Shown one piece after another: positions 22,381-40,492 of a DNA stretch of 64,000 nucleotides. This DNA is from Lutraria lutraria (lineage: Eukaryota > Mollusca > Bivalvia > Venerida > Mactridae). Positions within the stretch are counted from its first letter, which is position 1, and each line of letters starts with the position of its first letter. The notes below the pieces were generated by a model that saw only the letters and a program-made list of their open reading frames with translations, did no database searches and was not told the origin of the DNA. The DNA is taken from positions 17,328,386 through 17,392,385 of the forward strand of contig OZ026839.1 in the NCBI GenBank assembly GCA_964023205.1. The letters run 5' to 3'. The position numbers were made by a program, and so were the translations under genes.

Positions 22381-23199
22381 TCAAAACAGAGATTAAAAAT
22401 CTCTGAAATAATAGGTTTTTACATTTTTCTTAAATACATCCAAGGAAGATAACTGTTTTATGAACGATGGCAATTAGTTACATAGAGTTGGTCCCACAGT
22501 ACTAAAACTTAGGTCGTTAAAGGTTTTTTCTTTTGTTAAAAGGGACGACAAAGCAATATTCTGCACTGTCACAGGATCTCAAACTAGACTTTTTTGAAAT
22601 TGGTTTGTTTAAGAGTTTAGTTAGGTATAGAGCAGCTTTGCCGACAAAACAGTTATACATGGTACACAGAATTCTTAAATCAGATTAAACAGAGATGCCT
22701 TGGAACTATCATATTTTCCACGAGGTAAAACAGGTTTAGCGCACATATTCTGTATTCTTTGCATTTTCTATATGTCAATTTCTTAAACAATAAGGCATTA
22801 TAATAATCTAAATGAGAGATCATTAATGACAGAACAGGATTTTCGTAGCGTCCTCGGTCTGATATTAACAGTTATTCTTGATTCTAAGATAGTTTAACAT
22901 GGCAGTTTTACACTTTGTTTAAACATGTGTTGTAAATTTAAGTAATTCGGCTAAGTATGTCTGATAGTACTGACAGACTGAATTTTATCACCCGCGACGT
23001 CAATTTCTTAGGTACAACAATTGTTAAGTTGTGCCTTCCTACCAAACAGTATGAATTCTGTTTTAGTTGTGTTCATTTTGAGTTTATTGGCAGTTATCCA
23101 GTCATTGATGGTAAGAGCATATTCTTCTCGTTGTTTTATTGCACTATGTTTATTTGTCACTGAGGTTGGTCGAAAGCGTTCACTAGCAATATGATCGTC
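22380..23199 (-). pseudogene. LINE RT fragment, 3' half of the copy split by the Polinton
   Basis: On the minus strand, immediately inside the Polinton target site, the frame reads DDHIASERFRPTS and later INDWITANKLKMNTTKTEF. This is the region just after the RT catalytic motif. Further on a DLSFSTVGPTLW-like C-terminal block appears near 22480-22520. It continues the fragment at 40487-43000. Confidence 0.82.
23194..23199. repeat. Target-site duplication, left (ATCGTC)
   Basis: The 6-bp sequence immediately outside the left TIR is identical to 40487-40492. Six-bp duplications are the rule for Polinton/Maverick integrases. Confidence 0.95.
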
Positions 23200-23458
23200 A
23201 GTAGTGTATGGCGGTACCCTGGGACCCGGGTCATATAGAATATAGAGGGAGTGGGTCCCCAAAGTAAACAAAATTGTGACAAATTAGGACAAATTGGAAA
23301 TCAATGTTGTACCCCAAAATAGTATGAATTTAATTTTCGGAAACTTCTGGGACCATTGTTTTGTGTGTGTATAGACTGAGACAATGAGAGAATTTTCTTT
23401 CGAAAAGACATGGTGGCCCTGAAAAGGGCCGTTGGTGGTCCTGAAAAGGACCGTTGGT
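23200..23458 (+). repeat. Polinton left TIR (259 bp)
   Basis: It is the reverse complement of 40228-40486 with two mismatches (in GAATTTAATT and in AGACTGAGAC). It starts AGTAGTGTATGG. The inner end contains tandem histone-type stem-loops and a GAAAGAA block that serve the outward-facing gene next to it. Confidence 0.96.
23391..23452 (-). promoter_or_regulatory. Tandem histone-type 3' stem-loops plus HDE-like block (left TIR)
   Basis: Read on the minus strand, 13 nt after the stop of the gene ending at 23465: GGTCCTTTTCAGGACC (23452-23437), then GGCCCTTTTCAGGGCC (23430-23415). Each is a 6-bp stem with a UUUC loop, flanked by CAAC and ACCA. After 12 nt comes CGAAAGAAAATT (23402-23391). Stem, loop and flanks match the metazoan histone mRNA 3' stem-loop bound by SLBP. 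The purine block sits where the U7 snRNA target (HDE) lies in histone pre-mRNAs. Function is inferred. Confidence 0.8.
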
Positions 23459-23464
23459 GGTTTT

Positions 23465-23938
23465 TTAAACCGTGTTTGCTGACTGATCTGGTTGGGTACA
23501 TAGTTCGCATTGGCAGTCTGGTGGGGGATAGCAGAGCCTGCATGTTGAATCCCCACAGGACCATTCCTGTTCTGGTACTGGTGGTTGTTCCGTGTACTCA
23601 ACTTGAGCGGTAGTGATGATACGCCAATGCTCTTCTTCTTGTTGTTGTTCCCGTTGTCTATTCACCGTTCGTTCCCGAGCATCTCGCTGCCTTTCTCTGA
23701 CTTGATCTCGAAATTGAGATAATTCTTCTCTATGATGAAATCGATTGGTTTCAATGGTATTCAAAGTCTCACCAATGAATTGAAGATCACGTTCCCTTTT
23801 TCTAACAATGCTAGCCGCTAAGCGACTGATTGAACGCCATACCCTGCTCTGTTTTTCAGTCAGTTGTTTTGCTGTTTTGAGTTCATTGAATAAAGCCTCC
23901 ATCTTGAGTGTTTGAGTTCTCAGAATGAAATGAGGCAT
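23465..23938 (-). CDS. Coiled-coil, Cys-rich Polinton protein (left terminal gene)
   Basis: 157 residues if started at the first ATG (23938). The open frame extends upstream to 24043, but only a GTG is available there. Residues ~5-105 are rich in Glu/Arg/Gln with a heptad-like pattern, so a coiled coil is likely. The C-terminus has clustered cysteines (C-x4-C-x2-C-x5-C-x-C-x2-C), a possible zinc site. It is the outermost gene on the left and is transcribed toward the TIR. It is followed by histone-type stem-loops rather than AATAAA, and two CRE sites lie upstream. No family was recognised. Confidence 0.75.
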   Translation of the reverse strand: MPHFILRTQTLKMEALFNELKTAKQLTEKQSRVWRSISRLAASIVRKRERDLQFIGETLNTIETNRFHHREELSQFRDQVRERQRDARERTVNRQREQQQEEEHWRIITTAQVEYTEQPPVPEQEWSCGDSTCRLCYPPPDCQCELCTQPDQSANTV

Positions 23939-24188: not shown

Positions 24189-24779
24189 TTAATGATCACC
24201 ATAAAGAGTTGTATTTCTATGTATGATACTATGATACAAACGTCTGTGACCTTCTGGTCTAGAGTTACGTTGAGCACAACACTTTTGTCCACATTTATTC
24301 ACATATTGAGCATGCATGTAATAAGTACCATAATATTGTTGAAACCAATGCGTCACATAAGTGTCATTTTTTCCATACATGTCCGGTTTGAATCGGGTTA
24401 ACAGTATCTGGTTCAAGTCACATTCACGTGAGATAAAATCCAAAGCGAATAGACAATACACACCACACACCGGTAACATATCGCCTTGTATTCTCATGGC
24501 ATTCCACAGATAAGTTTTGTTGGCATGTTTTTTCACAAAGGATAGAATCTCTTCGAAAGGTGGTAATCCGTAGGAATCAAAGTACACTGCTTTATTGTCT
24601 TTTAAATAAAGAGCCACCCAGTGTTCTCCAGGTTGATCCCCGTTATGGGTATTCACAATATAGGCTTTCACGTCATGCGGTTTCTCTGAAGGTAATTGAT
24701 CTTTGGCACAAACACGTGCACGTAGTGGTTTTAATAACGGTGAATGATCTAATAGGTATTGTAGTTCATTCGTCTCCAT
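24189..24779 (-). CDS. Adenain-like maturation cysteine protease
   Basis: 196 residues from the ATG at 24779. The frame is open to 24815 but begins there with GTG. It belongs to the adenovirus-protease/Ulp1-like clan found in Polintons. Visible catalytic layout: His53 in GEHWVALYL, Asp68 in YFDSYG, Gln98 in RIQGD (oxyanion hole) and Cys105 in PVCGVYC. In related viruses it cleaves capsid precursors during virion maturation. The extra C-terminal tail (~150-196) is Cys/His/Arg-rich. The start overlaps the end of the upstream gene by 14 nt. Confidence 0.95.
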   Translation of the reverse strand: METNELQYLLDHSPLLKPLRARVCAKDQLPSEKPHDVKAYIVNTHNGDQPGEHWVALYLKDNKAVYFDSYGLPPFEEILSFVKKHANKTYLWNAMRIQGDMLPVCGVYCLFALDFISRECDLNQILLTRFKPDMYGKNDTYVTHWFQQYYGTYYMHAQYVNKCGQKCCAQRNSRPEGHRRLYHSIIHRNTTLYGDH

Positions 24780-25230
24780 AATGCCAATTTCTGTTGACAC
24801 GTTCAGCCCAAACACTGATCCATTGATCTATGAACTGATTCTGAGTGAGTTCTTCTTTAAATTGAATCCATAATCGACACGCGTCTCCTTTTTCACTATC
24901 GGTCAAGGTCACTAATTCAGGATACCACTTTTCCATGACCTTGAACACGTCCAAACGTTGAATCGCTTTTTGAATGTAAAGTTCTGTCCACTCTTCCGTA
25001 TTCGTGTATAAGCAGAGTACATGTTGTACTTGACTAGGATGATTCACTCGACAACCATAACAGTCTTTATGCACTTGATTATAAATTAAAGATTGGAGTG
25101 CTTCTGTGACGTGATGATTCAAGCACTCTTGTAAAAAGTCCGTCCTTGAACTTGTACAACAAGGATACGCCAATAACTTCATTTCGTAATCTTGTCCTTT
25201 TTCCAGGTGTTCAATATCCATGTCTTCCAT
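24766..25230 (-). CDS. Unknown Polinton protein between capsid and protease genes
   Basis: 154 residues, mostly helical in composition. It has conserved-looking Cys pairs (PCCTSS, DCYGC), a Trp-rich C-terminal half and an acidic N-terminus. It starts one nucleotide after the major capsid stop and overlaps the protease start. I do not recognise the family. Position suggests a late virion or assembly protein. Confidence 0.8.
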   Translation of the reverse strand: MEDMDIEHLEKGQDYEMKLLAYPCCTSSRTDFLQECLNHHVTEALQSLIYNQVHKDCYGCRVNHPSQVQHVLCLYTNTEEWTELYIQKAIQRLDVFKVMEKWYPELVTLTDSEKGDACRLWIQFKEELTQNQFIDQWISVWAERVNRNWHYGDE

Positions 25231-25231
25231 C

Positions 25232-26530
25232 TTAATAATCTAGAAGCACTTCTCTGAATTGATTGATTTCAATTTGATTGTCGTATTCCGCAAATACAAT
25301 CACGTTGATGGCTTGTGCAAGTGCTGTTCCAAAGTGAAATTCCAATCTCAGATTGCCCGTTTTTATAGGATGGAGTTGACCTTCCTCGCAACCTTGATCT
25401 GCTGTCAAGTCCAACCCCCAGAGTGTGTATCCGTTCCGATAATCATTCATGCTCAATCCAAATGAACGATTGAGACCAAGAGCTCCTGTCGCTTGATAGA
25501 GTGACATGTAGGATCTTAGAACTTCTCCCGTTTCAAAATTGGGTTGAAACGCTTTGTTATGAATACTTTTTCCGTCAATGCTGACTTCTAGATGATTCAG
25601 TGTAAAATGACGGAAATCAAAGGGGTTGGTAGCCATGTCTCCATTCATGTCTCCATTTCTTACCATACCGATGATAAGACGTTTTGGCAATTGACCTTGA
25701 AATAAATGATCTTCAATCTTGGATCGTTGACCGTTAGGAATCGTAAATGTTTTTACTTCAGTTCGTCGGATGGGGATTTTCATGTTATGTTGAGCAATCT
25801 GTTGATTGAGTTGATTGGCTACCACTGGCAGTAAATCTACTGTTCTTACATTAAATCCTGCTTCTAGAAACTTGATTTTACCCGGTGAAGTACTCATGAG
25901 ACAGAATTGAGGTGACGCTTTGTTTAGTCTTAAGCGTATTTCCATACCATTGGGTAAATATTTATCTTGCATCATCAGATCCAAATGAAGCCGTCCACAT
26001 AGTTCCACCACACGACTTTGATGGACACGAGCACGTCTCTTACCATAGCCCTTGTTATCCCCGTCATGTACTTTTTCGAGCATATGACCAGCGGTGTCTT
26101 CAGCCCATAACTCTAACGCCTGAAGCTGAGTGTCTTTACAGCTTGAGGTGAAGGAGAGTAAATTTTCTATGTATGCCCGATAGGCATACGTGTCCGCATT
26201 GCTGGTGATCAGTTTATTATTCAGATACACATCAATGCTTGAGAACATGCTGTGAAAGAAATTGTTGACGGTAGCAATTTCACTGTCGCCCGCTAGGTCT
26301 GTACCATCTGCCTGTATAATTTTTAGTTTTAGGTACAGGTAAGATTGATTCAGATCTGTCCATTTTTCTGTCTGTGCAGGAATCACAAATTCAATCGGAG
26401 CATTATTGTCCAGGGCAGAAATGGGATAATGCTCAGTCCATTGACCTTCTTGCATGGCTGTCATGGTAGGTGGTACAACAGACACATCCAACTCTGTCTT
26501 ACTACATTCACAGGAACCGTGTTGCATCAT
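25232..26530 (-). CDS. Polinton major capsid protein (double jelly-roll)
   Basis: 432 residues. The sequence pattern (IEFVIPAQTEKWTDLNQSYL near residue 45, YRAYIENLLSF near 115, later DMNGDMATNPFDF) matches the widespread Polinton/adintovirus capsid family. In invertebrate genomes this family is often annotated as F54H12.2-like. It is expected to form trimeric hexon-like capsomers. The length fits the family. It is flanked by the core-like protein upstream (2-nt gap) and the unknown downstream. The frame is fully open. Confidence 0.93.
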   Translation of the reverse strand: MMQHGSCECSKTELDVSVVPPTMTAMQEGQWTEHYPISALDNNAPIEFVIPAQTEKWTDLNQSYLYLKLKIIQADGTDLAGDSEIATVNNFFHSMFSSIDVYLNNKLITSNADTYAYRAYIENLLSFTSSCKDTQLQALELWAEDTAGHMLEKVHDGDNKGYGKRRARVHQSRVVELCGRLHLDLMMQDKYLPNGMEIRLRLNKASPQFCLMSTSPGKIKFLEAGFNVRTVDLLPVVANQLNQQIAQHNMKIPIRRTEVKTFTIPNGQRSKIEDHLFQGQLPKRLIIGMVRNGDMNGDMATNPFDFRHFTLNHLEVSIDGKSIHNKAFQPNFETGEVLRSYMSLYQATGALGLNRSFGLSMNDYRNGYTLWGLDLTADQGCEEGQLHPIKTGNLRLEFHFGTALAQAINVIVFAEYDNQIEINQFREVLLDY

Positions 26531-26532
26531 GA

Positions 26533-26898
26533 TTAATCGAAAATATCAAGAGGTCTGGCCTGCTTAACTCGGCGATGATGAAGTTTCGAATGAGGTCTTT
26601 TCTTGACTGGTTTGCTCTTTATACGTCTTTTAGGGCTGGCCACGGCATGTAGCAAGGATTCACCCACATCTTTTAACACAGAGGCTCCACGTTTTCGTAT
26701 TACTTGTTTAGCGTTTGATCCTGTCAAGATATCTTTGATAGCGGCTTTTCCTTGCTGGAGTCCTTCTTTTTTCAAGGTGCGAACTCCAGATTTCACAAAT
26801 GGATTCAGTAAAGGTATAATTCTTTTCATGGCTTTCTTAAACATGGATCCAAGTCCGTGTCCATATTGTCGAGGTTGACCTTGGTAAGTAGGTATCAT
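26533..26898 (-). CDS. Small basic core / pVI-pX-like virion protein
   Basis: 121 residues, strongly basic (Lys/Arg ~30% in the C-terminal half). An N-terminal QYGHGLGSMFKKAMKRIIP segment could form an amphipathic helix. Such Gly-rich N-termini followed by an amphipathic helix occur in Polinton/adintovirus virion proteins compared with adenovirus pVI or pX. The GxG context is also a candidate site for the element's own protease. It overlaps the penton gene by ATGA. Confidence 0.75.
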   Translation of the reverse strand: MIPTYQGQPRQYGHGLGSMFKKAMKRIIPLLNPFVKSGVRTLKKEGLQQGKAAIKDILTGSNAKQVIRKRGASVLKDVGESLLHAVASPKRRIKSKPVKKRPHSKLHHRRVKQARPLDIFD

Positions 26899-27737
26899 TG
26901 TCTTTGACGTAGGTGTAGTTTCACCATAGACTTCCCATGAATAAACTGAATAGACTGGCCAGTGTCACCCCTTATATGGATAGTGATGGTGTCAAAGTCG
27001 GCTTTAGCCAGTGGTACATAGTGTAAATTCAAGAACTCGAAATGAATATGAGGGTTAGTTCCTGCTTTCGTTCTCGGATCAAATGGAGCTACACGTAAGA
27101 TGGGGGCTTCTATGTTTCCCAAATAGGTATAAGACGCAAGGTCGGAATAAACAAACAAATGATTATGACCCATGTTAATATCTACGCCATGAGGAAACGG
27201 TTCCGGAGTGTCTTTAAAAAAGATGGTAGAAGAACTATCAGGGGCTCCACCCAGTTTAATAAACATGTGAGGATGAAACTGAATGCCTAGTTGATCCGAA
27301 CTGTCCAGTTTTGCGCGTTTACTTTGTCCTGAAAAACCCATGGTAAATCGAAGGCCTTTCTGTCTAAATATTTTACCTAATTGATCTTTCACGGTAAAGT
27401 CAATCGTCTCGATCAAATGTTGGGGTGTGACATAAGTTCCTATAGGAATACAAAGTCGTACACCTTTTTCTTCTTTATTGGGGAGAGTACAATAGGTCTC
27501 AAAGTTTTCTAAGGCCTTACCCAGGACAGGATCATGTGTGACAATGTAGAAATGTCGCTCTTCTTCAGTGACATTAATGACCTGACTAGGAACAATCATT
27601 TCCACTAAGGCAATTTCCCAATCTTGTTTATTGAGATGGATGGGTTTTGCCAGTTTGGTACGAAAACAACATTGCGTATTGTCTTGGAATAAATCCATAG
27701 AGCTATCACTCATGAGTGTGATGTAAAACGAACTCAT
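26895..27737 (-). CDS. Penton-like minor capsid protein (single jelly-roll)
   Basis: 280 residues. The N-terminal pattern FYITLMSDSSMDLFQDNT, then an LNKQDWEIALVEMIVPSQV segment, is typical of the Polinton minor capsid/penton protein. It would occupy the icosahedral vertices. It is placed directly beside the core and major capsid genes, with 4-nt ATGA overlaps at both its start and its stop. Confidence 0.88.
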   Translation of the reverse strand: MSSFYITLMSDSSMDLFQDNTQCCFRTKLAKPIHLNKQDWEIALVEMIVPSQVINVTEEERHFYIVTHDPVLGKALENFETYCTLPNKEEKGVRLCIPIGTYVTPQHLIETIDFTVKDQLGKIFRQKGLRFTMGFSGQSKRAKLDSSDQLGIQFHPHMFIKLGGAPDSSSTIFFKDTPEPFPHGVDINMGHNHLFVYSDLASYTYLGNIEAPILRVAPFDPRTKAGTNPHIHFEFLNLHYVPLAKADFDTITIHIRGDTGQSIQFIHGKSMVKLHLRQRQ

Positions 27738-27979
27738 GTTGATTTAGGTTTATTGAATTTCAAGGAGGGATTCGGTAGAATATAACCTAGAGAACTACTT
27801 AAAAGCAGAAGCCACAATTCTCGATCGGGTCGTTGAAAACACAAATTAAATAGCGATACGGTAATAATAATAAATACCACTACAATTTGTGCAAAAAAAG
27901 TGACCTTATTTTTGGGTTCACACAATTTGGTTTGCTCTGAGGCAGTCACTACCACACTGGCCGTATCGGTTTGAGACAT
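27734..27979 (-). CDS. Small membrane protein with conserved LGYILPNP tail motif
   Basis: 81 residues from the ATG at 27979. A longer reading would need a TTG at 28027. One clear membrane helix lies at ~27-48 (FFAQIVVVFIIITVSLF) and a second hydrophobic stretch at ~54-68, ending in SLGYILPNPSLK. Small membrane proteins with this tail occur next to the penton gene in many Polintons (from memory of the family). The role is unknown; membrane interaction in assembly or entry is possible. Confidence 0.8.
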   Translation of the reverse strand: MSQTDTASVVVTASEQTKLCEPKNKVTFFAQIVVVFIIITVSLFNLCFQRPDRELWLLLLSSSLGYILPNPSLKFNKPKST

Positions 27980-27999
27980 GATGTATTTATTAACAAACT

Positions 28000-29073
28000 T
28001 CAAACGAGATGGGATTCGGGAATCCAACTGTCAAATTTCGAAGGATAACCTTTCCAATGTACTTTAATTTCACGTCTTCCGTCTACCTTACTCTGGCGAT
28101 GTGCGAGCACTGATTCAATTTCATAGATAGCATCATCTTTTATAACCTGTACTTCAGAGAAATAAAACGAACCCAAAATGGGTTCTCCGTCTAAATCAGT
28201 CAATTTCACAGTAGCAGGAGAGGTCTTTTTGACTTGGATCACTTTAAACAGTTCAGTGGTCCAATTAGGTAGATAACCTTTATCAAATGTACGTTTTGTT
28301 TTATTGATACGAACAATATCTCCCACATGAAGGGTCGTCGACGCTTTTTTTCTTGATTTTCCATACAAGGTCAAGGCCACTTGAGATTCGTTATTCTCAT
28401 TTACGGATACGGGTGCCATTTGTATACTACGATGAACACGATGATTATAGGCATGCACGAGATCAGACAATACCTGAATATACCTTCGTGTTTTATGATG
28501 CGTAAAGTATTTCCACATGCGTGATTTTAAGGTCCGTTGAAAACGTTCCACTATACTAGCCTTAGTTTCTGGGTTTTCAGTCGTAAAATAATGAATCCCT
28601 ACTTTGTCTAAAAACTGTTGAAACCTTTGATTCTTGAATTCTGTTCCTTTATCGGTTTGCAACGCTTTAGGTTGTCTCGTTTTAAGAATAGAGCGAAACG
28701 CTTCCACCAATGTGAGCCCCGTTTTATCCTTGAGGGGAACGACCCAAGCATATTTTGAAAACACGTCAATGACACACAACAAATATCGATAAGGGGTGTT
28801 GTACTGAGCCAAGGATTGCATGTCTGCCAAATCAGCTTGCCATTGATGATCAATACCACCCACAATCGTTTTCCGTCTCGAGAATACCCTACGGATAGGT
28901 TTGTGCAGGGTATAGGTCTTTTGTCCCTTCAACCAGGATCGCACTTGACTTGGCGTAATGGATTTCAGTTGAGTTCGAGCTGCTGTAGTAAGACGTTCTA
29001 CCCCACCAAAACCAGCCGGATGATGGGGATCATAATAAATCTGATGTAACAGACTGTCTACCTTTTTGTTCAT
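28000..29073 (-). CDS. Polinton integrase (rve, DD35E) with C-terminal chromodomain
   Basis: 357 residues from the ATG at 29073 (the open frame upstream begins GTG). Retroviral-type integrase core: Asp81 in QADLADM, Asp141 in TDKGTEF and Glu176 in SIVERF, giving exact DD35E spacing. The N-terminus carries the Polinton-type YYDPHHPAGFGGVERL block. The last ~42 residues form a chromodomain (YEIESVLAHR ... VHWKGYPSKFDSWIPE) with aromatic cage residues. It catalyses insertion with 6-bp duplications, and the chromodomain may steer it to methylated chromatin. Confidence 0.96.
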   Translation of the reverse strand: MNKKVDSLLHQIYYDPHHPAGFGGVERLTTAARTQLKSITPSQVRSWLKGQKTYTLHKPIRRVFSRRKTIVGGIDHQWQADLADMQSLAQYNTPYRYLLCVIDVFSKYAWVVPLKDKTGLTLVEAFRSILKTRQPKALQTDKGTEFKNQRFQQFLDKVGIHYFTTENPETKASIVERFQRTLKSRMWKYFTHHKTRRYIQVLSDLVHAYNHRVHRSIQMAPVSVNENNESQVALTLYGKSRKKASTTLHVGDIVRINKTKRTFDKGYLPNWTTELFKVIQVKKTSPATVKLTDLDGEPILGSFYFSEVQVIKDDAIYEIESVLAHRQSKVDGRREIKVHWKGYPSKFDSWIPESHLV

Positions 29074-29078
29074 GTTGT

Positions 29079-29828
29079 CTAGTAGGCTTCCCACTTAGGT
29101 TCTGCTTTCATCTGTTTGACAGGTTTACTTATAGGTTCTGCTTTCATCTGTTTGGCAGGTTTACTTATAGGTGAACGAGGCTCAACAAAACTATCAAAGA
29201 ATTCATCATCTTCCTCCGAATCGTCTGCTTTTTGCATCCATGACCATCTCCGTTTATTTCCTATCGCTTCTTGTGGTACATTGACATCTCTTAGTCCACT
29301 AGAAAACTGTTCCCATCCTCTAGGCTCCGACCCTTTTCTATGACGTATGACATCATTGACCAAATCAATAATGTTGGATCCTTGTATTGGTTTTCCATGG
29401 TATTCCAACATCCCTTGATCATTCCATGACATGTGGGGATGATTTTGTAGAAAGTGTAATAAAAGCTGAGTTTTTCGACGCATAGTAGTAGGAACACTTT
29501 CAAGAATCCGATCCGTCAATGTAGCAGGAGCCGCTTGTGCACCTTGAGCAGCTGGAACAACCGGTGCAGCCGGTGCAACTGGTGCAGCCAGAGTAGCCGG
29601 TTCACGTGCTTTTTGATGAGACAGTTGAAACTTTTGCAAGACTTGTCCATAGTGTTGTGCTTTTTCTGATTCAGACAACGATTCATTTTGTAATACGTCT
29701 CCCATTTGTTTCTGTAAATCGGATGTTTGACTGACTTGCGGGGGAGGAGGTAAACGTGGTCGTTGTTCTGTTTTCCATCGATTCATCTCTTCTAGCATTT
29801 TGAACGGGACGATAGCCATTTTCTTCAT
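29079..29828 (-). CDS. Conserved Polinton protein of unknown function
   Basis: 249 residues. Pro-rich linkers (RLPPPPQ; Ala/Pro/Val repeats at ~95-125) separate an N-terminal helical part from a conserved block at ~128-215 (ILESVPTTMRRKTQLLLHFL, GSNIIDLVNDVIRHRKG). I recall this block from Polinton-associated hypothetical proteins. The C-terminus is acidic with a duplicated SKPxKQMKAEP repeat. It overlaps the upstream gene by ATGA and ends 5 nt before the integrase ATG. No enzymatic motif. Confidence 0.8.
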   Translation of the reverse strand: MKKMAIVPFKMLEEMNRWKTEQRPRLPPPPQVSQTSDLQKQMGDVLQNESLSESEKAQHYGQVLQKFQLSHQKAREPATLAAPVAPAAPVVPAAQGAQAAPATLTDRILESVPTTMRRKTQLLLHFLQNHPHMSWNDQGMLEYHGKPIQGSNIIDLVNDVIRHRKGSEPRGWEQFSSGLRDVNVPQEAIGNKRRWSWMQKADDSEEDDEFFDSFVEPRSPISKPAKQMKAEPISKPVKQMKAEPKWEAY

Positions 29829-30196
29829 AGCTTTTTCACCAGTGTGGCAACACCTCCACTGAGTGCTCCTGCAGCAACAGCTTTAGCAATGATTGGAGCA
29901 AGAGCCAGTAATGGAAATAATCCTCCTTTTTGATTCAACACACGTTTCTTTTTTTGAATGGATACTCTTTTATCTGCTAAAGTGCGGAGATGTTGACGCT
30001 TGGACTTCAACCTTTGCTTTTGAGAGGGGGATAAGGCAACATTGCCTTTTAAAACATTCTGACAGCATTCTGACACACATTGAATCATTTCTTTAGATGC
30101 TCCATGTATCATCTTTCTTCTTAACCCATCTGGGGCTTGAGTTAAACCCAAAACCAGATGTCCGTATTTATGCAGGAGTGGTCTCTTTGGTGCCAT
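29825..30196 (-). CDS. Basic 'GG' protein, short paralogue
   Basis: 123 residues. A helical basic domain (REM/KEM-type repeats, ~20-75) is followed by KKKRVLNQKGGLFPLL and a hydrophobic Ala/Gly-rich C-terminus that could insert in membrane. The layout and spaced residues match the first ~95 residues of the neighbouring 383-residue protein, so the two look like tandem duplicates. A TATA box lies 42 nt upstream. Probably a virion or core protein (inference). Confidence 0.78.
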   Translation of the reverse strand: MAPKRPLLHKYGHLVLGLTQAPDGLRRKMIHGASKEMIQCVSECCQNVLKGNVALSPSQKQRLKSKRQHLRTLADKRVSIQKKKRVLNQKGGLFPLLALAPIIAKAVAAGALSGGVATLVKKL

Positions 30197-30230
30197 TATG
30201 TCAAATAATACCTGTTTTTACTTCTTCACA

Positions 30231-30238
30231 GCTTTTAT
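30231..30238 (-). promoter_or_regulatory. TATA box for the 123-residue gene
   Basis: Minus-strand TATAAAAG, with its first base 42 nt before the ATG at 30196. It overlaps the stop codon region of the upstream 383-residue gene. Confidence 0.6.
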
Positions 30239-31386
30239 ACTAAAGCATCAAAGGCTTGTCTTGAAGCTGGATTCATAGGGCCCTGTCTCATCAGGTGAAT
30301 ACGATGTCTCAAAAGGGGTTTCAAGACGGCCTGTCTTGATAAGGTAGACAAGGATAGGGGTGAAAAACGGCACAATGGAGTGTCTGGTGAACTTCTTGAA
30401 CTGGGAGATGATCTACTAGATGATCTGCTGGATGAATTTCTTGATAAACTACTTGACCCACTGGTTGAAGAACTACTTGGCGAACTGAAGCTGCTTGGTC
30501 CACTTCTAGATGAACTGCTTGCCCCACTGCTTGAATAACTGCTTGGCCCACTGCTTGAATAACTGCTTGGCCCACTGCTTGAATAACTGCTTGGCGAACT
30601 GAAGCTGCTTGGTCCACTTCTAGATAAACTGTTTGATCCACTTCTTGATAAACTTCTAGATGAACTGATTGGTCCACTTCTTGATAAACTTCTAGATGAA
30701 CTTTTAGGTGTACTAAAACTGTTTGATCCACTTCTTGATAAACTTCTAGATGAACTTTTAGGTGTACTAAAACTGTTTGATCCACTTCTAGAAGAATTTC
30801 TTAAGCTTCTAGATGAGCTAAAGTTCAAACTACTCACAGGACTGATAGGAGACCATTGTAACTTACTGATTGGAGTTACAGCCATAGAGGGTGTTGAAGT
30901 GGTTTGCTTTCGACGACGGAGAGTAATAAAACGTTCATTGATCTTGGCAGGCGATTTTCTAGCTTTTTTAGCTGGAGCTTTTCTTGCTCTTTTAGCTGGA
31001 GATTTTCTAGGTTTTCTAGCAGGCGCTTTTCTTTTAGCTGGAGATTTTACAAATTTACGAATCGTCTTTTGACCATTCCATCGGAGTAAACTTCGTATCA
31101 TAACTCCACCAAGAAATCCACCTCCTCCTGGTTTCAATATGAGTTGACGTTTAGTATCCATGTCCACTTGATCATCTCCCAGCTGCTCTAATTCATGCTG
31201 ATGTTTTTGCATAAAGTTTTGTGTTTGTTTAGGTAGCACAATTTTCTTTTTTAAAATCACCTTTGCTGCTAAGGTGAACCACTTGAGCATTTCTTTTAAT
31301 CCAGACCGTAGCATTTGCTCCCGTACAGTAGGGTCTCGTTCCTGACCCAAATGTTCTAACGATTGAGCTATGGCTGTGGCTGACAT
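30235..31386 (-). CDS. Long 'GG' protein with H1-like and Ser-rich tail (core-like)
   Basis: 383 residues. Residues 1-95 resemble the 123-residue neighbour and end in KRQLILKPGGGGFLGG. Residues ~115-150 are SPAKR/APAKK repeats like histone H1 tails. Residues ~185-335 are SRS/SGPSS low-complexity repeats with a visible internal 27-nt and related periodicity in the DNA. Such a basic, phosphorylatable tail suggests genome condensation in the virion. The frame is fully open. Confidence 0.78.
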   Translation of the reverse strand: MSATAIAQSLEHLGQERDPTVREQMLRSGLKEMLKWFTLAAKVILKKKIVLPKQTQNFMQKHQHELEQLGDDQVDMDTKRQLILKPGGGGFLGGVMIRSLLRWNGQKTIRKFVKSPAKRKAPARKPRKSPAKRARKAPAKKARKSPAKINERFITLRRRKQTTSTPSMAVTPISKLQWSPISPVSSLNFSSSRSLRNSSRSGSNSFSTPKSSSRSLSRSGSNSFSTPKSSSRSLSRSGPISSSRSLSRSGSNSLSRSGPSSFSSPSSYSSSGPSSYSSSGPSSYSSSGASSSSRSGPSSFSSPSSSSTSGSSSLSRNSSSRSSSRSSPSSRSSPDTPLCRFSPLSLSTLSRQAVLKPLLRHRIHLMRQGPMNPASRQAFDALV

Positions 31387-31420
31387 GATGACTGAATGAT
31401 CTTATATGAGTAAACGATGT

Positions 31421-31429
31421 TTATATATA
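31421..31429 (-). promoter_or_regulatory. TATA box for the 383-residue gene
   Basis: Minus-strand TATATATAA lies 43 nt before the ATG at 31386. It overlaps the 3' end of the ATPase coding sequence, so gene ends and promoters are superimposed. Confidence 0.6.
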
Positions 31430-32068
31430 CACAACTGGCCCACGTTTTTCTCCAGTGATCCAGTGATGAAAAATATCAGTTCTTAACCGATAACTGTCTG
31501 GTGTTTGAGGGTGAAAGTCAATCACTAAATACCCATGAGGTGTAGAGATAGCATCTTGATAAGCGGGTAACAAGTGTGGCAATTGAATTTGATTCGCCAA
31601 CACTTTGATTTGTCCTTTATCTCTTGTGTTTTGAAATAAGATCATGTAATGTGCATTTAAACTCAGGGTACGACTGGCTTTCGATTGTTGAAACATGTTT
31701 TGTGTAATGTAGATCACACTAGCATTACGATGGTGACCTTTTCGTGTAAACCATAATTTGATTTTCTCTTCATCTTTATCACCAAGCATGTCATCAAATA
31801 TAATTAAATGAGGAATGGATGTATCCTCTACTATCTCTTCATCCTCGTCAGGTATCCCCTGTATGAACCGAATACTAGGTTCTTGTTCTTGTAATTGTGC
31901 ATAGGCTACTTGCCATTCTTTGTAACACCATACAATACGCTCTGGTACTACTTGAAACAAATCTGATTTGTATTCCAACACCTTTTTTACGAATTGTGTT
32001 TTACCAGAGCCACTAGGGCCTGCGATAAACATATTGCAAGGATGCTTAAAAAGTAAACTGGACTCCAT
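31421..32068 (-). CDS. A32/FtsK-HerA-type DNA-packaging ATPase
   Basis: 215 residues. Walker A GPSGSGKT at 17-24, Walker B LIIFDD at 88-93 and a polar sensor strand VIYITQN at ~118-124. The length and order fit the packaging ATPases of Polintons, adintoviruses and related nucleocytoplasmic viruses. It would pump the genome into the preformed capsid. Confidence 0.94.
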   Translation of the reverse strand: MESSLLFKHPCNMFIAGPSGSGKTQFVKKVLEYKSDLFQVVPERIVWCYKEWQVAYAQLQEQEPSIRFIQGIPDEDEEIVEDTSIPHLIIFDDMLGDKDEEKIKLWFTRKGHHRNASVIYITQNMFQQSKASRTLSLNAHYMILFQNTRDKGQIKVLANQIQLPHLLPAYQDAISTPHGYLVIDFHPQTPDSYRLRTDIFHHWITGEKRGPVVYI

Positions 32069-32108
32069 GACGTGAAAATCACAACTAACACTATTGGAAG
32101 AAAAACAT

Positions 32109-32118
32109 TTTATTTATT
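32109..32118 (-). terminator. Overlapping AATAAA poly(A) signals
   Basis: On the minus strand AATAAATAAA follows the stop at 32131 by ~13 nt. It probably ends the transcript covering the three small genes below the polymerase. The same A/T run lies ~45 nt before the ATPase ATG and could also act as its TATA-like element. Confidence 0.55.
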
Positions 32119-32130
32119 TGTGTAACAAGT

Positions 32131-32493
32131 TTATGTATGAGTACAAGAATAATCACAACAAGAACAACACATGTCATGTAAGGGTAACAACAGTTTGTCA
32201 GAAAATTCAAACACACATTCTGAATGTCCAGATTGACTCAGAAATGTTAACACAGAGTCATTGTTCACCACCTGTTTGAACCAATCCGTTTCACTCAAGT
32301 CCATGGGTACTGATTGTTTATAAAATGAATTCATCACATGAAGTCCATGTTTCATTTCTTCAAACATGTCTGGTGTACTCAACTGTTGTCGAATCCATTC
32401 CAGAGAATGATGACCTTCAGGTATCTTCATACGATAAGCAAATACCAATGCTTTTCTCAACAGGGTATGGTTCATAATATCAAACTGTTCCAT
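32131..32493 (-). CDS. Unknown small Polinton protein with Cys-rich tail
   Basis: 120 residues, helical composition, ending in CCSCCDYSC, a possible metal site. It overlaps the preceding small gene by 22 nt. The C-terminal half shows a faint DW...V.NDxV pattern shared with that neighbour, which may indicate an old duplication. No family recognised. Confidence 0.7.
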   Translation of the reverse strand: MEQFDIMNHTLLRKALVFAYRMKIPEGHHSLEWIRQQLSTPDMFEEMKHGLHVMNSFYKQSVPMDLSETDWFKQVVNNDSVLTFLSQSGHSECVFEFSDKLLLPLHDMCCSCCDYSCTHT

Positions 32494-32759
32494 TCTTGAA
32501 TCGTGTGAATCACTCTATCGTTACATACATAAGTATTCCAATCGTCTCGATGGATAGCTTTCAAGTCTAAGTGTGCACTGATCATAGCATCACGAATCAT
32601 CTGTCTAAATAGTTCAAACGTGTGAGGATTCAGAATCCACGCGCGAATGTCCTTGACCTTGACAAGGTCATCTTGTACAATACTGTATAACGTATCCGTA
32701 TACAGCTCAAAGTCCAAAATGTAATATAAACTTATAAATCGTCTAGATGGTTTAACCAT
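32472..32759 (-). CDS. Unknown small Polinton protein
   Basis: 95 residues from the ATG at 32759 (upstream extension needs TTG). No motif is recognised. The gene overlaps neighbours at both ends, as is common in this cluster. A function in early replication or host interaction can only be guessed from its place behind PolB. Confidence 0.65.
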   Translation of the reverse strand: MVKPSRRFISLYYILDFELYTDTLYSIVQDDLVKVKDIRAWILNPHTFELFRQMIRDAMISAHLDLKAIHRDDWNTYVCNDRVIHTIQEWNSLIL

Positions 32760-33358
32760 AATTGAATATTTCCTGAACAAATCACTATTCTAGGTCGATT
32801 CGCATGAACGGCTTCAATCTCGTCTTTGACTTCTCTTAAACGGTGCCTTAATTTATAGAACACGGCACGATACTGTAGAATATGAATAACATGAGTGAAC
32901 GGTACCTGTCTCTTAAATACCATGATACCACGTATTTTAAACTGTGAATACGGACGCCATCCGGGGTGAGATCTCCCATTGTCCTCTTCAGCCATACTGA
33001 ACCATATCACATTGGGGGTAGAACGAAAATTGTTAGCTAAGGCAGATACGTCGCTCAAATTAGCATCGTGGATTAAAAAATCCCATGTCGTAGATAACAT
33101 ACGATCTAAGCTTTGTTGTACCACATTCAGTTTTCGTAGAATCGGTAATTTTTGGTTGAATGACAAGTCCTGGCGATCACCTACATCCTTCAACAGTCTC
33201 TCTATCCGTCGATGATTTGTATGTTGTAAGCTATGTATAGCATTATGAGTAGCCCATGTGTGCACTAACTCCATCTTCCATGTTTTAGCGTTAGCCCATA
33301 TGACATAACGATAAATTTTAAGTCTCAGCTCTATCGGTAGTAAGGGTATCCAATCCAT
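32732..33358 (-). CDS. Unknown Polinton protein with F-box-like N-terminus
   Basis: 208 residues. The N-terminus, MDWIPLLPIELRLKIYRYVI, closely follows the F-box pattern (LPxELxxxIxxYV). The rest is helical, rich in Arg and His, with no recognised substrate domain. If a true F-box, the protein could link a target to a host SCF ubiquitin ligase. That is inference from ~20 residues only. It lies 60 nt after the polymerase stop. Confidence 0.72.
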   Translation of the reverse strand: MDWIPLLPIELRLKIYRYVIWANAKTWKMELVHTWATHNAIHSLQHTNHRRIERLLKDVGDRQDLSFNQKLPILRKLNVVQQSLDRMLSTTWDFLIHDANLSDVSALANNFRSTPNVIWFSMAEEDNGRSHPGWRPYSQFKIRGIMVFKRQVPFTHVIHILQYRAVFYKLRHRLREVKDEIEAVHANRPRIVICSGNIQLWLNHLDDL

Positions 33359-33418
33359 GTCTTTATGAATAATGAATTTTAGATGACTTGTTCTAGGCCT
33401 CTAGCTCAAAGGTCAAGG

Positions 33419-36400
33419 TCAGTCATGTAGATAACCATAAGGCACAGTCATATGATTCTCGACCACAATACGTTTGGTATATACCGAACGAAATGTTTTG
33501 ACTTGTTTCTCACTGGTCACGGTTCTGTCCTTATGACGTTTAATCCGAGAAGCATATTCAACTACGGTCGAATAATGATGTCTGTCTTTCACACAATCCA
33601 CCATCGTATTGAAATTCACTTGTTGAGTGGCATTGTAGTCTAACGTAATGCCTTTCACTTTGCATTTTTGATGGAGTTCACCGTTTTCAATGTATTCATA
33701 GCCATAGTTCTTTGGACCTAAAGCGACATATCTCACAATACGACCCTTTGGTACCTCATCTGTCCATTTTCCCAATCGACTGGAGATAATAGGAACATTA
33801 TAGCCATCAGGGTCATGAATGTACATACAACTGTCTGTGTCAAAATACAGTACTCTCTTTCCTAGAGGTTCAAGCACTTTGTACAGTTCTAATCGAGCAT
33901 AAGCCGTCACAAATGAAGCCACCACAGGATTGGCTGATGAATGAGGGTCTGCTTTGTCCGATTCATCAGTATAATTCATTAACATGAATTCATCATGATC
34001 AAAACACTCTACATATTTCACAGACTTTTTAGGATCGTTCAGTATTCCGTAGAACTGGTCCAATCGATGAACATACTCTGTTTTAGGCAAGAGGTTGGTT
34101 TGAGCATTTTTACCCCAGAGACAATTCAGCATGGTTTTGGCAAAAGCTCGTTTTCCCGGATTTTTCTTCACCTGTTGCAAACGAATTCCTTCTGCTTCAA
34201 AATAATCTTGTTTAAATTTATCTTGAGCCTCTTCCGTATCCACCCCTGGAGGATATCCACTAGCCTCTTGTTTCATTTTCAAGTATTTGTCAATGTATTG
34301 CCGATAGACGTCCGTACTCCATTCATCCCAGTGCCATACATGATACACTTTTGATACTTGATAGCCTAAAGCAATAGCTTTAGCCAATTCAACATGAGTC
34401 CATGTGCCATACAAGAATCGTTCATACGGGGAATGTGTACAATAATCCATCTCCTTCTCAGCACAGGTACGGCATAGCGTAAACACCATTTTACTATTAC
34501 AGTGTATGGGTAAGACAGGCATCCATAAATCTTGCGGGGGTAGAACACGGCATTTAATCAGTCCTTTGTATTTCTCAATATGCTGTTGATCAATTTGTTC
34601 TTGACTCATGATCATTGGATGACCTATCGGATAAGTCCTGTACTTGTTCACATACGGATAGAGAGAACAAATATCCACATATTTGATTTCTTGGTCGTTG
34701 TCTACTTCATGATACAGTCGGACGGCATTCGTACGACCTCCGAACAAAGCTTCCCTGGGTTGTATAGGTTCTTGACCATGATAGAATCGTTCCACTCTTG
34801 TCTTATAGGCAGGATCCTTTTGACAACGCTGATCAAATTCACATTCCCACATGACCACAACAGGGTACCCCTGTTCTTTCAAAGTCTTCAGTCGTTTATA
34901 CGTATCGTGATAGGCCTGTTGCATGCTTCTCAAAGTATACGGATTGATGGTACTTCGGTTAGGAAAACAGGTGGGGCACCCATGGTACCAACATCCCATG
35001 AATTCATACACGGTGTTGGTCTCTTGACAATAGCCATCCACGTAATAAGGTCCAATTTTGACTTCGCCTTTGTTATTCAAGGCATGTCGAATATGTATCT
35101 CTTCGGTGACAGCCATCATTTGTAGCCAACGTATGCCTTTCATGGAATACCGGGTTTTATTGGGATACCCGGCATCCGAAATCACGGCTAAACTATGAGG
35201 TGGCATGGAATTTTTGCGCCAGGCTTTGTTACACACTTGAGCTAATGTGGTAGCTTCAGTAAATGGATCTATTTGATCACTTTCCAATAATTGTTGACGA
35301 AATTCTCCACACCCGCGCCTTAAAATGTCTACATCCGATTGACAGTATTTCTCCATTTCCTTTTGAAAATCAAATACGTCACCTTTTCTTTCATTGTACC
35401 AGGTTAAAAACTCTTCACGTCGCTCTGGTTTCATACTATCCGGTTTGTAAAAGTGTAGCGGTAAATAAGGTCCCACATAATCTTGATACGTCAAGGTGTT
35501 TGCATAGAATGGAAACCATCCTTTGGCTAACTCGGTCAGTCCAAATGTATTGGGAAAATAGGAGAGAGGCATACTCAGGAAACTGAGGGAGTCAATCATG
35601 CGTATTCCATGCACTCTCAATTGAATGATTTTACTACCATTCATAATCAACTGGGGTTTCGCCGTCCCCTGAGTAACCACATATCTAAGAATAAACTGAG
35701 CGTCATAACCTTGAGCATTGTGGGCTATCACTGTCGATCCTCGATGGGTAGGGAGGAATAGCCAAGTACAGAATTGTTGTAACGTATTTTCACCACGGAA
35801 TGTCATTTGTCTGGCTTCATTCACCTCTTCACAATACTCACATGGAGTTTTCACTGACTTACACATACAGTCACCACAAGCACGTTGAGCCACACAAAAA
35901 TTAGGGATATGTTCTCCAGAATCAAAACGACATTCAAAATCAAAAAAGATGAATGGTACTTCTGGTTGTTTTCTATCGGGTGGTTCATACGTTGGAATGT
36001 AACAGTCATGATCTGGTCCTACTATGGCTTTACAACACCTGCATTTCTTTGTCCCTGGGCAAACGTGACTCCGTTTCGTTTCAATCACCTTTTGCCCACA
36101 TTTCTTACAATTCCATACGGATTCACAAATGGTTTTACGTCGTTTTCCCGTTTTTGTTTTATGATTGTCAAAACATGCCTGACTCTGGAATAGGCGACGA
36201 CAATCTGGACATCTTATAGATTGTCCTGCTGGGCACAGGGTGTGAGCATAACACTGACAAATATGGCTACACTGGTGTCCTTCACGGTGATCATAACTGA
36301 TATCACACCATTCACAATAATAACTCCGTCCGAGAAATCCGGTAATGGATACGATACAGTCATAATGATTATCATGGTGAAAGATATGAATCACACGACT

Positions 36401-37210
36401 TTTTTCAGTCATAGCAGGTGGTTTGAATAACAATTCACTTCCATAATGTTGTGGATGGATTTTAATCACGTAGCTGGGATAGAGATAGTCCTGTAGTTTT
36501 TGGTATTCTTCTATACCACACGACTGATCCGATGAAATACCCACTTGCTTCAACAATGCTTCAGCTTCGTATTTTTGAAGATTTTTCTTAGAGTGACGTA
36601 TAAGACCCCATCGTTTTTTCCATTCTGGGGTTTGATTTTCATGTACTTTACACCGTCCTACCACAATCGATCTAGCTAAACACATAGAGTCTTTACTATT
36701 GTCAATACACACAACACTTGTCTTTGACTTCCGCATACTGAATAAGTTTGGTGCTTTAAACGTTTTCTTTCCGGTTCCCTGTGGCATAGCAATATGCGTA
36801 ATTTCCATCTGTGCCGCCCCATCATGAATTTTAAATTGACGGTTACTCTGTGCCACACGTTCAATTTCATCCAATAATGTATCTCCACTAATACGAGATG
36901 CCCTATTAAACGGAACATGTATTCCAAAGTCCAAATCAGGATGTAGAATAGATACTCGAACTCGATCATTCGACTTCACTTCACATCTCTTGTAGAGCTG
37001 ATCCATCATATCATTAAACACCCTGTTTGTAAATTCAAACGATTGATTATACGGCTGAAATGTCACATCATATACTCTAGATTGAGTCTTAAATTTCCTT
37101 GACTTTCTTTCCATGCGTGACTGTATGTTATAATAGTCGCGCACAGGCTCAAACTTACTTCGTTTAGTTGGAGGTTCATCCTCACCACTAGTACTGTCGG
37201 TATCTGACAT
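33419..37210 (-). CDS. polB: Protein-primed family B DNA polymerase (PolB)
   Basis: 1,263 residues from the ATG at 37210 (the upstream frame begins GTG). The TATA box at 37238-37246 supports this start. Exonuclease motifs: ExoI DFEC (424-427), ExoII with Asp503 (HNAQGYDAQFIL) and ExoIII YCQSDV with Asp626. Polymerase motifs: A (Asp846, VDICSLYP), B (KRAFAKTMLNCLWGK, ~1020-1034) and C (YFDTDS, Asp1124/Asp1126). A large N-terminal region carries many Cys/His pairs (~300-405, likely zinc-binding). It also has a conserved GCWYHGCPTC block near 740. Full-length and intact. It replicates the element from its protein-primed termini. Confidence 0.97.
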   Translation of the reverse strand: MSDTDSTSGEDEPPTKRSKFEPVRDYYNIQSRMERKSRKFKTQSRVYDVTFQPYNQSFEFTNRVFNDMMDQLYKRCEVKSNDRVRVSILHPDLDFGIHVPFNRASRISGDTLLDEIERVAQSNRQFKIHDGAAQMEITHIAMPQGTGKKTFKAPNLFSMRKSKTSVVCIDNSKDSMCLARSIVVGRCKVHENQTPEWKKRWGLIRHSKKNLQKYEAEALLKQVGISSDQSCGIEEYQKLQDYLYPSYVIKIHPQHYGSELLFKPPAMTEKSRVIHIFHHDNHYDCIVSITGFLGRSYYCEWCDISYDHREGHQCSHICQCYAHTLCPAGQSIRCPDCRRLFQSQACFDNHKTKTGKRRKTICESVWNCKKCGQKVIETKRSHVCPGTKKCRCCKAIVGPDHDCYIPTYEPPDRKQPEVPFIFFDFECRFDSGEHIPNFCVAQRACGDCMCKSVKTPCEYCEEVNEARQMTFRGENTLQQFCTWLFLPTHRGSTVIAHNAQGYDAQFILRYVVTQGTAKPQLIMNGSKIIQLRVHGIRMIDSLSFLSMPLSYFPNTFGLTELAKGWFPFYANTLTYQDYVGPYLPLHFYKPDSMKPERREEFLTWYNERKGDVFDFQKEMEKYCQSDVDILRRGCGEFRQQLLESDQIDPFTEATTLAQVCNKAWRKNSMPPHSLAVISDAGYPNKTRYSMKGIRWLQMMAVTEEIHIRHALNNKGEVKIGPYYVDGYCQETNTVYEFMGCWYHGCPTCFPNRSTINPYTLRSMQQAYHDTYKRLKTLKEQGYPVVVMWECEFDQRCQKDPAYKTRVERFYHGQEPIQPREALFGGRTNAVRLYHEVDNDQEIKYVDICSLYPYVNKYRTYPIGHPMIMSQEQIDQQHIEKYKGLIKCRVLPPQDLWMPVLPIHCNSKMVFTLCRTCAEKEMDYCTHSPYERFLYGTWTHVELAKAIALGYQVSKVYHVWHWDEWSTDVYRQYIDKYLKMKQEASGYPPGVDTEEAQDKFKQDYFEAEGIRLQQVKKNPGKRAFAKTMLNCLWGKNAQTNLLPKTEYVHRLDQFYGILNDPKKSVKYVECFDHDEFMLMNYTDESDKADPHSSANPVVASFVTAYARLELYKVLEPLGKRVLYFDTDSCMYIHDPDGYNVPIISSRLGKWTDEVPKGRIVRYVALGPKNYGYEYIENGELHQKCKVKGITLDYNATQQVNFNTMVDCVKDRHHYSTVVEYASRIKRHKDRTVTSEKQVKTFRSVYTKRIVVENHMTVPYGYLHD

Positions 37211-37319: not shown

Positions 37320-37670
37320 ATGAGCGATCCTAAAATGAACCAAGTTGAAGAGAACCGAGATCAAACTTTGATGTATTCATTAAAGAAGAAAATTAAAGAG
37401 CTTGACAACTTAGCGGATCAGCTCTGTGGACAGAAAAATGTAACATGGGATCATATCAAGTGTTATCGTTGTGGAAAGAAAGGACATTATTCTACAAGCT
37501 GTACGGAACCCTTCAACAATGAATGCTTTTATTGTCATGAACAAGGACATTTCATCGCAGACTGTCCTAAGAAACAAGGTGAACAGGTCGATCTACAGGA
37601 CGCAGAACAGAGTAAGAAAAAACGTAAATACAAAAAGAATCCAACAAAAACTGTGAGTGACTTTGTGTAA
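37320..37670 (+). CDS. Two-zinc-knuckle (CCHC) protein
   Basis: 116 residues. There are two perfect C-x2-C-x4-H-x4-C knuckles: CYRCGKKGHYSTSC (residues 48-61) and CFYCHEQGHFIADC (~69-82). A short coiled-coil-like N-terminus precedes them and a Lys-rich tail (KKKRKYKKN) follows. CCHC knuckles bind single-stranded nucleic acid, as in retroviral nucleocapsid or CNBP proteins. It is transcribed divergently from PolB, so an early replication or RNA-binding role is plausible. It ends with an ordinary AATAAA. Confidence 0.88.
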   Translation: MSDPKMNQVEENRDQTLMYSLKKKIKELDNLADQLCGQKNVTWDHIKCYRCGKKGHYSTSCTEPFNNECFYCHEQGHFIADCPKKQGEQVDLQDAEQSKKKRKYKKNPTKTVSDFV

Positions 37671-37855: not shown

Positions 37856-37871
37856 GGCCCTAATAAGGGCC
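37856..37871 (-). promoter_or_regulatory. Variant histone-type 3' stem-loop
   Basis: The minus strand reads GGCCCTTATTAGGGCC, flanked by CCCAAC and ACCA, starting ~10 nt after the stop of the 74-residue gene. It has the same 6-bp stem as the TIR copies, but the loop is UAUU instead of UUUC (U1 and U3 kept) and there is a single loop only. A weak CAAGCAAAGA lies ~30 nt downstream as a possible HDE. Confidence 0.6.
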
Positions 37872-37881
37872 GTTGGGTAAT

Positions 37882-38106
37882 TCATTGCATTTCTGCAAGA
37901 AATAGGTATCGCCAATAGTTGGCTCTCAAATCCTCATCATAAAAGATGGCAAGGTCAGGGTATAAATTACCCATCTTGATATCCATCTTCACTTCTACAC
38001 ATGCATCTTGGAATTCAGACAAGTCTGGGTACAAATTACCCATCTTGACCACCCAAACATCTTCTTGTTCAGGTTCATCAGAAGAACTTTTCAAGCAGTT
38101 GCCCAT
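37882..38106 (-). CDS. Predicted N-myristoylated protein with two YPDL motifs
   Basis: 74 residues. It starts MGNCLKSSSD: Gly2 with Ser6/Ser7 fits N-myristoylation and Cys4 fits palmitoylation. The segment KMGNLYPDL occurs twice (21-29 and 44-52). YPDL fits the YPxL late-domain consensus that recruits ALIX of the ESCRT pathway. The protein is acidic with an aromatic C-terminus (NYWRYLF). It is divergent to the 107-residue gene and ends in a histone-type stem-loop. A membrane-tethered adaptor for egress or trafficking is the best guess; the frame is short, so the gene call is not certain. Confidence 0.7.
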   Translation of the reverse strand: MGNCLKSSSDEPEQEDVWVVKMGNLYPDLSEFQDACVEVKMDIKMGNLYPDLAIFYDEDLRANYWRYLFLAEMQ

Positions 38107-38166
38107 GTTGAATCATGAAACATAAATGAGCTATGGAACATGAGAAAAACACTGACCTAGAACAGA

Positions 38167-38243
38167 CCAATGAAATGCCAGTAAAATAGACCAATGAAAT
38201 ACCGTTAAAATGGACCAATGAAATACCGTTAAAATGGACCAAT
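38167..38243. promoter_or_regulatory. Four CCAAT boxes at exact 24-bp spacing (divergent promoter)
   Basis: CCAAT at 38167, 38191, 38215 and 38239, each inside a diverging 24-bp repeat (GACCAATGAAATACCGTTAA type). They sit between the 74-residue (minus) and 107-residue (plus) genes. CCAAT is the NF-Y site and is common in divergent histone gene promoters. I see no clear TATA for either gene. Confidence 0.7.
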
Positions 38244-38307
38244 CAGAGTCCTTGTATCATATGAGAGTCAGTGACCTTACCTTGATCTAATTTCATTCTG
38301 TATCAAG

Positions 38308-40207: not shown

Positions 40208-40227
40208 AGATCCGACTAACAGCCACA

Positions 40228-40486: not shown

Positions 40487-40492
40487 ATCGTC
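40487..40492. repeat. Target-site duplication, right (ATCGTC)
   Basis: Identical to 23194-23199. On the minus strand it reads GACGAT, the Asp-Asp codons of the interrupted LINE reverse transcriptase. Confidence 0.95.

Follow-up and report, generated by a model that had tools for sequence, protein, structure and literature searches.

The window analysed here, by which we mean the whole 64-kb stretch (64,000 nt) of the Lutraria lutraria genome, contains a 17.3 kb Polinton at positions 23200-40486. Its terminal inverted repeats (TIRs; 262 nt, 99% identical) lie at 23200..23461 and 40225..40486 and are bordered by a perfect 6-bp target-site duplication, ATCGTC (left copy 23194..23199, right copy 40487..40492). 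A cluster of core genes occupies 24189..37210 on the minus strand, including a protease-like gene, an integrase (28000-29073), an A32-type ATPase (31421-32068) and PolB (33419-37210), and next to it a zinc-knuckle gene is found on the plus strand (37320..37670). In Pfam, the polymerase matches the protein-primed type (PF03175, 127.9 bits), the integrase is of the retroviral type with a chromodomain (PF00665, 46.9 bits; PF00385, 31.8 bits) and the ATPase is of the A32 type (PF04665, 34.2 bits against a cut-off of 22.8). The adenovirus-type protease-like match (PF00770, 13.8 bits, cut-off 21.3) and an adenovirus-pX-like match are both under their Pfam cut-offs, and no double jelly-roll major capsid protein was recognized, the 432-aa ORF at 25232-26530 having no Pfam or PHROG match and only chance-level matches in the PDB. 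With its TIRs, 6-bp target duplication, PolB, integrase and A32-type ATPase, the element is a Polinton, sharing these features, the chromodomain of the integrase included, with the Polinton/Maverick elements of animals (Adintoviridae and their kin). Among 37 relatives of its PolB, the five with a named source are all from bivalves (two from Mercenaria, two from Mya and one from Mytilus). Outside the element, the window also carries several inverted repeats at 1773-3861, with arms of 128-282 nt that are 91-92% alike.

The element further carries four small accessory genes. Two of them are terminal and read outward, the left one encoding 157 aa (23465..23938, minus strand) and the right one 242 aa (39479..40207, plus strand), and the cassette at the 3' end of each sits in a TIR. 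The other two, encoding 74 aa (37882..38106, minus strand) and 107 aa (38308..38631, plus strand), are internal. Comparisons between copies gave pooled pN/pS ratios of 0.31 for the left gene (19 distinct sequences), 0.47 for the 74-aa gene (5 distinct sequences), 0.08 for the 107-aa gene (5 distinct sequences) and 0.27 for the right gene (16 distinct sequences), and this range (0.08-0.47) shows that all four behave as real genes under purifying selection. None of the four proteins has a histone match in Pfam. Two close relatives each were found for the proteins of ORF 23465 and ORF 38308, on short contigs that are perhaps transcript assemblies. Differences among five copies of the 107-aa ORF are concentrated in its first half and mostly synonymous, with nearly identical flanks, so that it looks like a mosaic or recombined segment. 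The 74-aa protein begins with MGNCLKS, which we take to be a myristoylation-like start, and contains two LYPDL words, presumably akin to the LYPxL late domains that recruit ALIX; these motifs might point to a role at the membrane or in egress. Repeats around GCTGTGATAGTATAATGTGTACAGT, which vary among copies, lie in the interval that separates the internal hairpins from the right gene (window 38820-39250).

Seven histone-type stem-loops are present at four places: in both TIRs, at 38651-38688 (plus strand) and at 37856-37871 (minus strand). The left TIR carries two of them in tandem on the minus strand, which is the sense of ORF 23465-23938: stem-loop 1 (23437..23452) is an exact GGYYCTTTTCAGRRCC, folding as GGTCCT-TTTC-AGGACC, and stem-loop 2 (23415..23430) folds as GGCCCT-TTTC-AGGGCC, each being preceded by CAAC and trailed by ACCA. 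These tandem 6-bp stems with UUUC loops, their flanks, their sense and their positions had been described in the original prediction, and re-reading of the sequence found the description correct. It had also placed a GAAAGAA block 12 nt downstream; the block, a candidate histone downstream element, is there (GAAAGA, 23396..23401, minus strand), but its distance from the second stem is 13 nt. The same tandem pair recurs on the plus strand in the right TIR (40234..40271, with GAAAGA at 40285-40290) and internally (38651..38688, with GAAAGA at 38703-38708). On the minus strand at 37856..37871, a lone hairpin departs from this pattern in its UAUU loop and in the absence of GAAAGA. GAAAGA is thus found 13-14 nt beyond the second hairpin at three of the four places. 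At the three tandem places the hairpins are 22 nt apart, start to start, and the two members of each pair differ by a compensatory change from T-A to C-G. A 6-bp GGYYCU/AGRRCC stem with a UUUC-type loop is exact in six of the seven hairpins, the other being the one at 37856 with its UAUU loop. The internal cassette at 38651 resembles the one in the TIRs at 79% over a stretch of 86 nt.

All four places are in sense and closely follow a stop codon, at 12 nt for the left gene, 10 nt for the 74-aa gene, 19 nt for the 107-aa gene and 26 nt for the right gene. Among the 15 ORFs surveyed for hairpins and poly(A) words (a set outside which ORFs 26533, 26895, 27734, 29079 and 29825 were left), a hairpin within 150 nt past the stop was found in these four accessory genes only. 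A search of the window for the 16-base stem-loop, allowing two mismatches, returned seven matches, all in the element (shuffled sequences had a mean of 0.07 and a maximum of 2, n=100), and found no hairpin elsewhere, the core gene cluster and the zinc-knuckle gene included. We also ran cmscan over the whole window, on both strands, with 4,227 Rfam families. The histone 3' end family, RF00032 (Histone3, gathering cut-off 34), had four matches, all inside the element, and no further match in the 64 kb: 35.8 bits in the left TIR (23435-23389, E 1e-06), 35.8 bits in the right TIR (40251-40297), 34.0 bits at the internal pair (38668-38712) and 31.0 bits, under the cut-off, at the single hairpin (37876-37831). 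The likeness to the replication-dependent histone 3' stem-loop that had been claimed for the left TIR is therefore upheld by a curated model, which reaches its cut-off at three places.

The host genome (728.5 Mb in 71 contigs) contains 2,074 exact matches to the 21-base hairpin consensus (1034 forward and 1040 reverse), as against none on either strand for the same pattern read backwards as a control; the pattern was also found in 12 stretches of a 257-Gb prokaryote collection. The 100 places listed of these 2,074, all on contig C1, form 18 groups. In 14 of these, six matches are arranged and oriented as in the window element; three further groups contain five (one of them truncated where the listed places end), and the last is a single match. 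In a genome search with RF00032, 75 of 131,090 first-look candidates were scored, and at least 44 match at E 0.001 and at least 37 exceed the cut-off; five of the 44 belong to a tandem array on contig C12. A survey of sites at 69 loci and in the window gave 61 distinct site sequences, 55 from Polintons and 6 from the C12 array. Among the 55 Polinton sites, an ORF stop lies within 60 nt upstream of the hairpin in 46, the hairpin is followed within 40 nt by an [AG]A[AG]AGA block in 47, and the hairpins are tandem in 41. The nine sites without an upstream stop are five internal sites at the edge of their locus together with those in L002, L005, L067 and one in L027, where the ORF is broken or missing. 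The eight without the block comprise five of the 74-aa-gene type, one cut by the locus end and two aberrant copies (L002 and L069), a GAAAGA-like block being absent from all five distinct sequences of this 74-aa-gene (37856) type.

Because these sites were found by their hairpin, the counts are silent on the rate of hairpin loss. On the same ground, and with the flanks being equally conserved, we do not take conservation as proof that the hairpin is under selection; for the internal cassette, too, it adds no evidence of its own, since the flanks there are likewise conserved. At least 37 PolB matches were found in the host genome (37 of 567 candidates scored), 98-100% identical to the query, and 35 of the 37 have no internal stop. 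The element has therefore been active recently.

The core histone genes of the host form a tandem cluster at C6:24990598-25100771. In 5.8 kb of this cluster, where the four genes come from one repeat, a hairpin is found 29-31 nt past the stop of each of H2B, H2A, H1 and H3, GGCCCTTTTTAGGGCC in H2B, H2A and H3 and GGTCCTTTTCAGGACC in H1, with RF00032 scores of 31.7 (H2B), 31.9 (H2A), 30.5 (H1) and 33.8 bits (H3), all under the cut-off of 34. Comparison with these host 3' ends also speaks for the claimed likeness, as the histone model scores three of the four element sites above every one of the four host genes. Stem-loop 1 of the element has all 16 bases in common with the loop of host H1, and stem-loop 2 differs from those of H2A, H2B and H3 in one loop base of 16; host H2A also has AAGAAAG roughly where a downstream element would be. 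With replication-dependent histone 3' ends as modelled in RF00032, the element has in common the 6-bp GGYYCU/AGRRCC stem, the UUUC loop, the CAAC and ACCA flanks, a purine block 13-14 nt on and a position soon after the stop codon. It departs from them in that its genes are not histones, its hairpins are mostly tandem and one site is without the purine block, and the stop-to-loop distance is 10-26 nt in the element as against 29-31 nt in the four host genes. In another bivalve, Lucina pectinata, histone mRNAs have the hairpin, with purine-rich elements near some of them, according to passages of PMC6210712.

As for the machinery that would read such signals, the host has an SLBP, the RNA-binding domain of which (PF15247) is found in two neighbouring exons on contig C10 (60.9 and 34.5 bits against a cut-off of 27). 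The best host U7 snRNA candidate, on contig C18 (L077, G000:C18:11176273-11176321), has a U7-like Sm site and a 3' hairpin and scores 29.2 bits, under the cut-off of 34, with a genome-wide E of 0.07. Pairing with this sub-threshold candidate was equalled or bettered by a fraction of shuffles of 0.31 for the TIR (0.58 with a longer stretch), 0.04 for the block at 38703 and 0.03 for the GAAAGA-less 37856 site, and by 0.04 for host H2B, 0.66 for H2A, 0.33 for H1 and 0.33 for H3; nothing is drawn from U7 pairing, because the true host histone genes mostly fail it. To our knowledge, U7 is not the rule in C. elegans, and the histone downstream element may therefore not be needed everywhere.

Poly(A) words (AATAAA or ATTAAA) occur within 150 nt past the stop in seven of the 15 ORFs surveyed, namely the left gene (ATTAAA 130 nt past its stop), the zinc-knuckle gene (AATAAA at 37785), the protease-like gene, ORF 24766, the integrase, the ATPase and ORF 32131. 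At the end of the right gene AATAAA occurs twice, in one case overlapping with its stop codon, and judging from these words its message could be polyadenylated. In the 74-aa and 107-aa genes, the stretch that begins 30 nt ahead of the stop and reaches 150 nt beyond it contains neither word. Five core ORFs are also without these words within 150 nt past the stop, so that poly(A) genes and hairpin genes do not separate cleanly.

Upstream, the 74-aa and 107-aa genes share a divergent promoter region (38107..38307) with four CCAAT words at 24-nt spacing; in the 250 nt upstream of host genes, CCAAT is found five times at H3, twice at H2A and not at H1. The region ahead of the left gene (23939-24060, minus strand) has two TGACGTCA words, which we take to be CRE-like, along with one CCAAT and one E2F-like word, and this mixture of CRE-like and E2F-like words is presumably as in the early promoters of DNA viruses. 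The right gene has a TATA box and no CCAAT, and CCAAT is found in two of six promoters of core or zinc-knuckle genes. For some of the genes these motifs are in keeping with S-phase promoters, and they say no more than that.

We consider it highly probable that the stem-loops are working histone-type 3' end signals on the transcripts of the four small accessory genes of an abundant and recently active Polinton, with predicted processing by SLBP and U7. This suggests that the element borrows the host histone-message machinery for its own genes. The sequence, position and sense of the hairpins, their constant arrangement across copies, the purifying selection on the genes, the presence of a host SLBP and the nearly identical hairpins of host histone genes are the observations that lead to this reading. 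In this reading the hairpin beside the purine block would be bound by host SLBP, and the block itself would base-pair with U7 snRNP; a cut just past ACCA by the histone cleavage complex would leave messages that end in the hairpin in place of poly(A). In work cited in passages of PMC6303110, major cleavage is 5 nt past the stem-loop, and parts of PMC1924863 have the histone mRNAs of C. elegans ending 3-6 nt past the hairpin. The two terminal genes would use the TIR as their 3' end cassette, stopping transcription ahead of the flanking host DNA, and a restriction of the messages to S phase would time accessory expression to host DNA replication.

Other explanations have to be weighed against this one. 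The hairpins could be DNA elements of the TIRs, acting in protein-primed replication, packaging or integrase binding, with an accidental likeness to histone signals; two of the four places are indeed in the TIRs, and the hairpins are palindromic as DNA too. We regard this as very unlikely, as the remaining two places are in the interior of the element and each of the four closely follows a stop codon in the sense orientation. The match, moreover, takes in the loop, the unpaired flanks and the purine block beyond them and satisfies a curated covariance model, and the same hairpin is found in host histone genes. It is also improbable, if somewhat less so, that the messages are polyadenylated at the nearby AATAAA or ATTAAA, the hairpins being relics or optional signals: the 74-aa and 107-aa genes are without such words around their stops, and the hairpins are retained in many copies, some of them divergent. 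The pair of AATAAA words with which the right gene ends, the ATTAAA 130 nt past the left stop and the short contigs, perhaps transcript assemblies, carrying relatives of two of the proteins are in keeping with it.

Next to no weight is given to the idea that the hairpins are decoys, binding host SLBP, disturbing host histone mRNA and being kept for that. Their tandem arrangement (41 of the 55 distinct sites) and about two thousand exact genome copies would suit a decoy, but a decoy does not need the purine block, which lies at processing distance in 47 of the 55 sites. A more serious possibility, though one that we hold rather doubtful, is that the element took the signals from a histone gene of the host and has them processed, yet uses them as mere compact terminators without S-phase control. 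The identity of stem-loop 1 to that of host H1 and the ordinary TATA box at the right gene point that way, as does the 79% likeness of the cassettes over 86 nt, which makes a single capture followed by duplication likely. Yet the hairpin governs the translation and decay of histone mRNA, according to parts of PMC1924863 and PMC2781718, so that control would come along with it, and CCAAT arrays stand ahead of two accessory genes as they do at host H3 and H2A.

Working histone-type signals on the accessory messages thus being the reading we prefer, it can be extended to one that has, in our judgement, an even chance: the accessory genes would be under the host histone programme at both ends, through CCAAT-rich and partly divergent promoters and SLBP/U7 processing, giving S-phase messages without poly(A) and with histone-like translation. 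The replication and operon genes would then have ordinary poly(A) ends, and the TIR would be a processing cassette. If true, Polinton gene expression would be tied to host DNA replication, SLBP and U7 would have, at about two thousand places in the host, a natural substrate that is abundant and not a histone message, and a set of mobile-element genes would for the first time be seen to follow the histone mRNA cycle. The gain for the element from S-phase coupling would be expression during host DNA replication, with outward transcription ended at the element border. Such messages would escape RNA-seq on poly(A)-selected RNA, and the expression of Polintons may for that reason have been rated too low.

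Histone-type 3' end signals, placed in the TIRs and after accessory genes, set this element apart from the Polinton/Maverick elements (Adintoviridae and their kin) described in the literature surveyed. The original prediction was aware of no description of this in Polintons, and in agreement with it we found, among open-licence PMC texts, no earlier report of a histone stem-loop, SLBP or U7 in a Polinton, Maverick, transposable element or viral mRNA. The main text of PMC11071296, on animal DNA viruses, searched by term, has no stem-loop or SLBP and two mentions of histone-like viral proteins. As far as can be seen, the signal is of a known kind and its use by a mobile element is new.

The PolB query found no relative among viral contigs; with an alignment of 18 PolBs as the query, six distant loci came up there, and RF00032 has no match in five of these six (L072 being left out). 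The hairpin pattern was found in one stretch of the viral contigs, on a phage-like contig without an RF00032 match, and was taken as chance; a second hairpin pattern found none in the same contigs. In giant viruses, a palindromic hairpin marks the 3' ends of mRNAs, is read by viral enzymes and gives poly(A) tails. The Polinton is like them in having a hairpin at the predicted mRNA 3' end and unlike them in that its sequence is the host histone signal.

A parallel is also found within the host genome, in a tandem array on C12 (L062-L064, three stretches in G000:C12:22874001-22918000) with a unit of about 1.5 kb and a 109-aa non-histone ORF. The RF00032 matches of this array had been considered as those of host histones, a candidate rejected on finding that the array is of a non-histone gene and that the true cluster is on C6. 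A histone-type stem-loop scoring 28.4-31 bits lies 39-40 nt past the stop of the 109-aa ORF. As with the accessory genes of the Polinton, a non-histone gene is thus followed by a histone-type 3' stem-loop; unlike the Polinton hairpins, and in a comparison that covers the 109-aa ORF only, the stem in the C12 array has one C-A mismatch.
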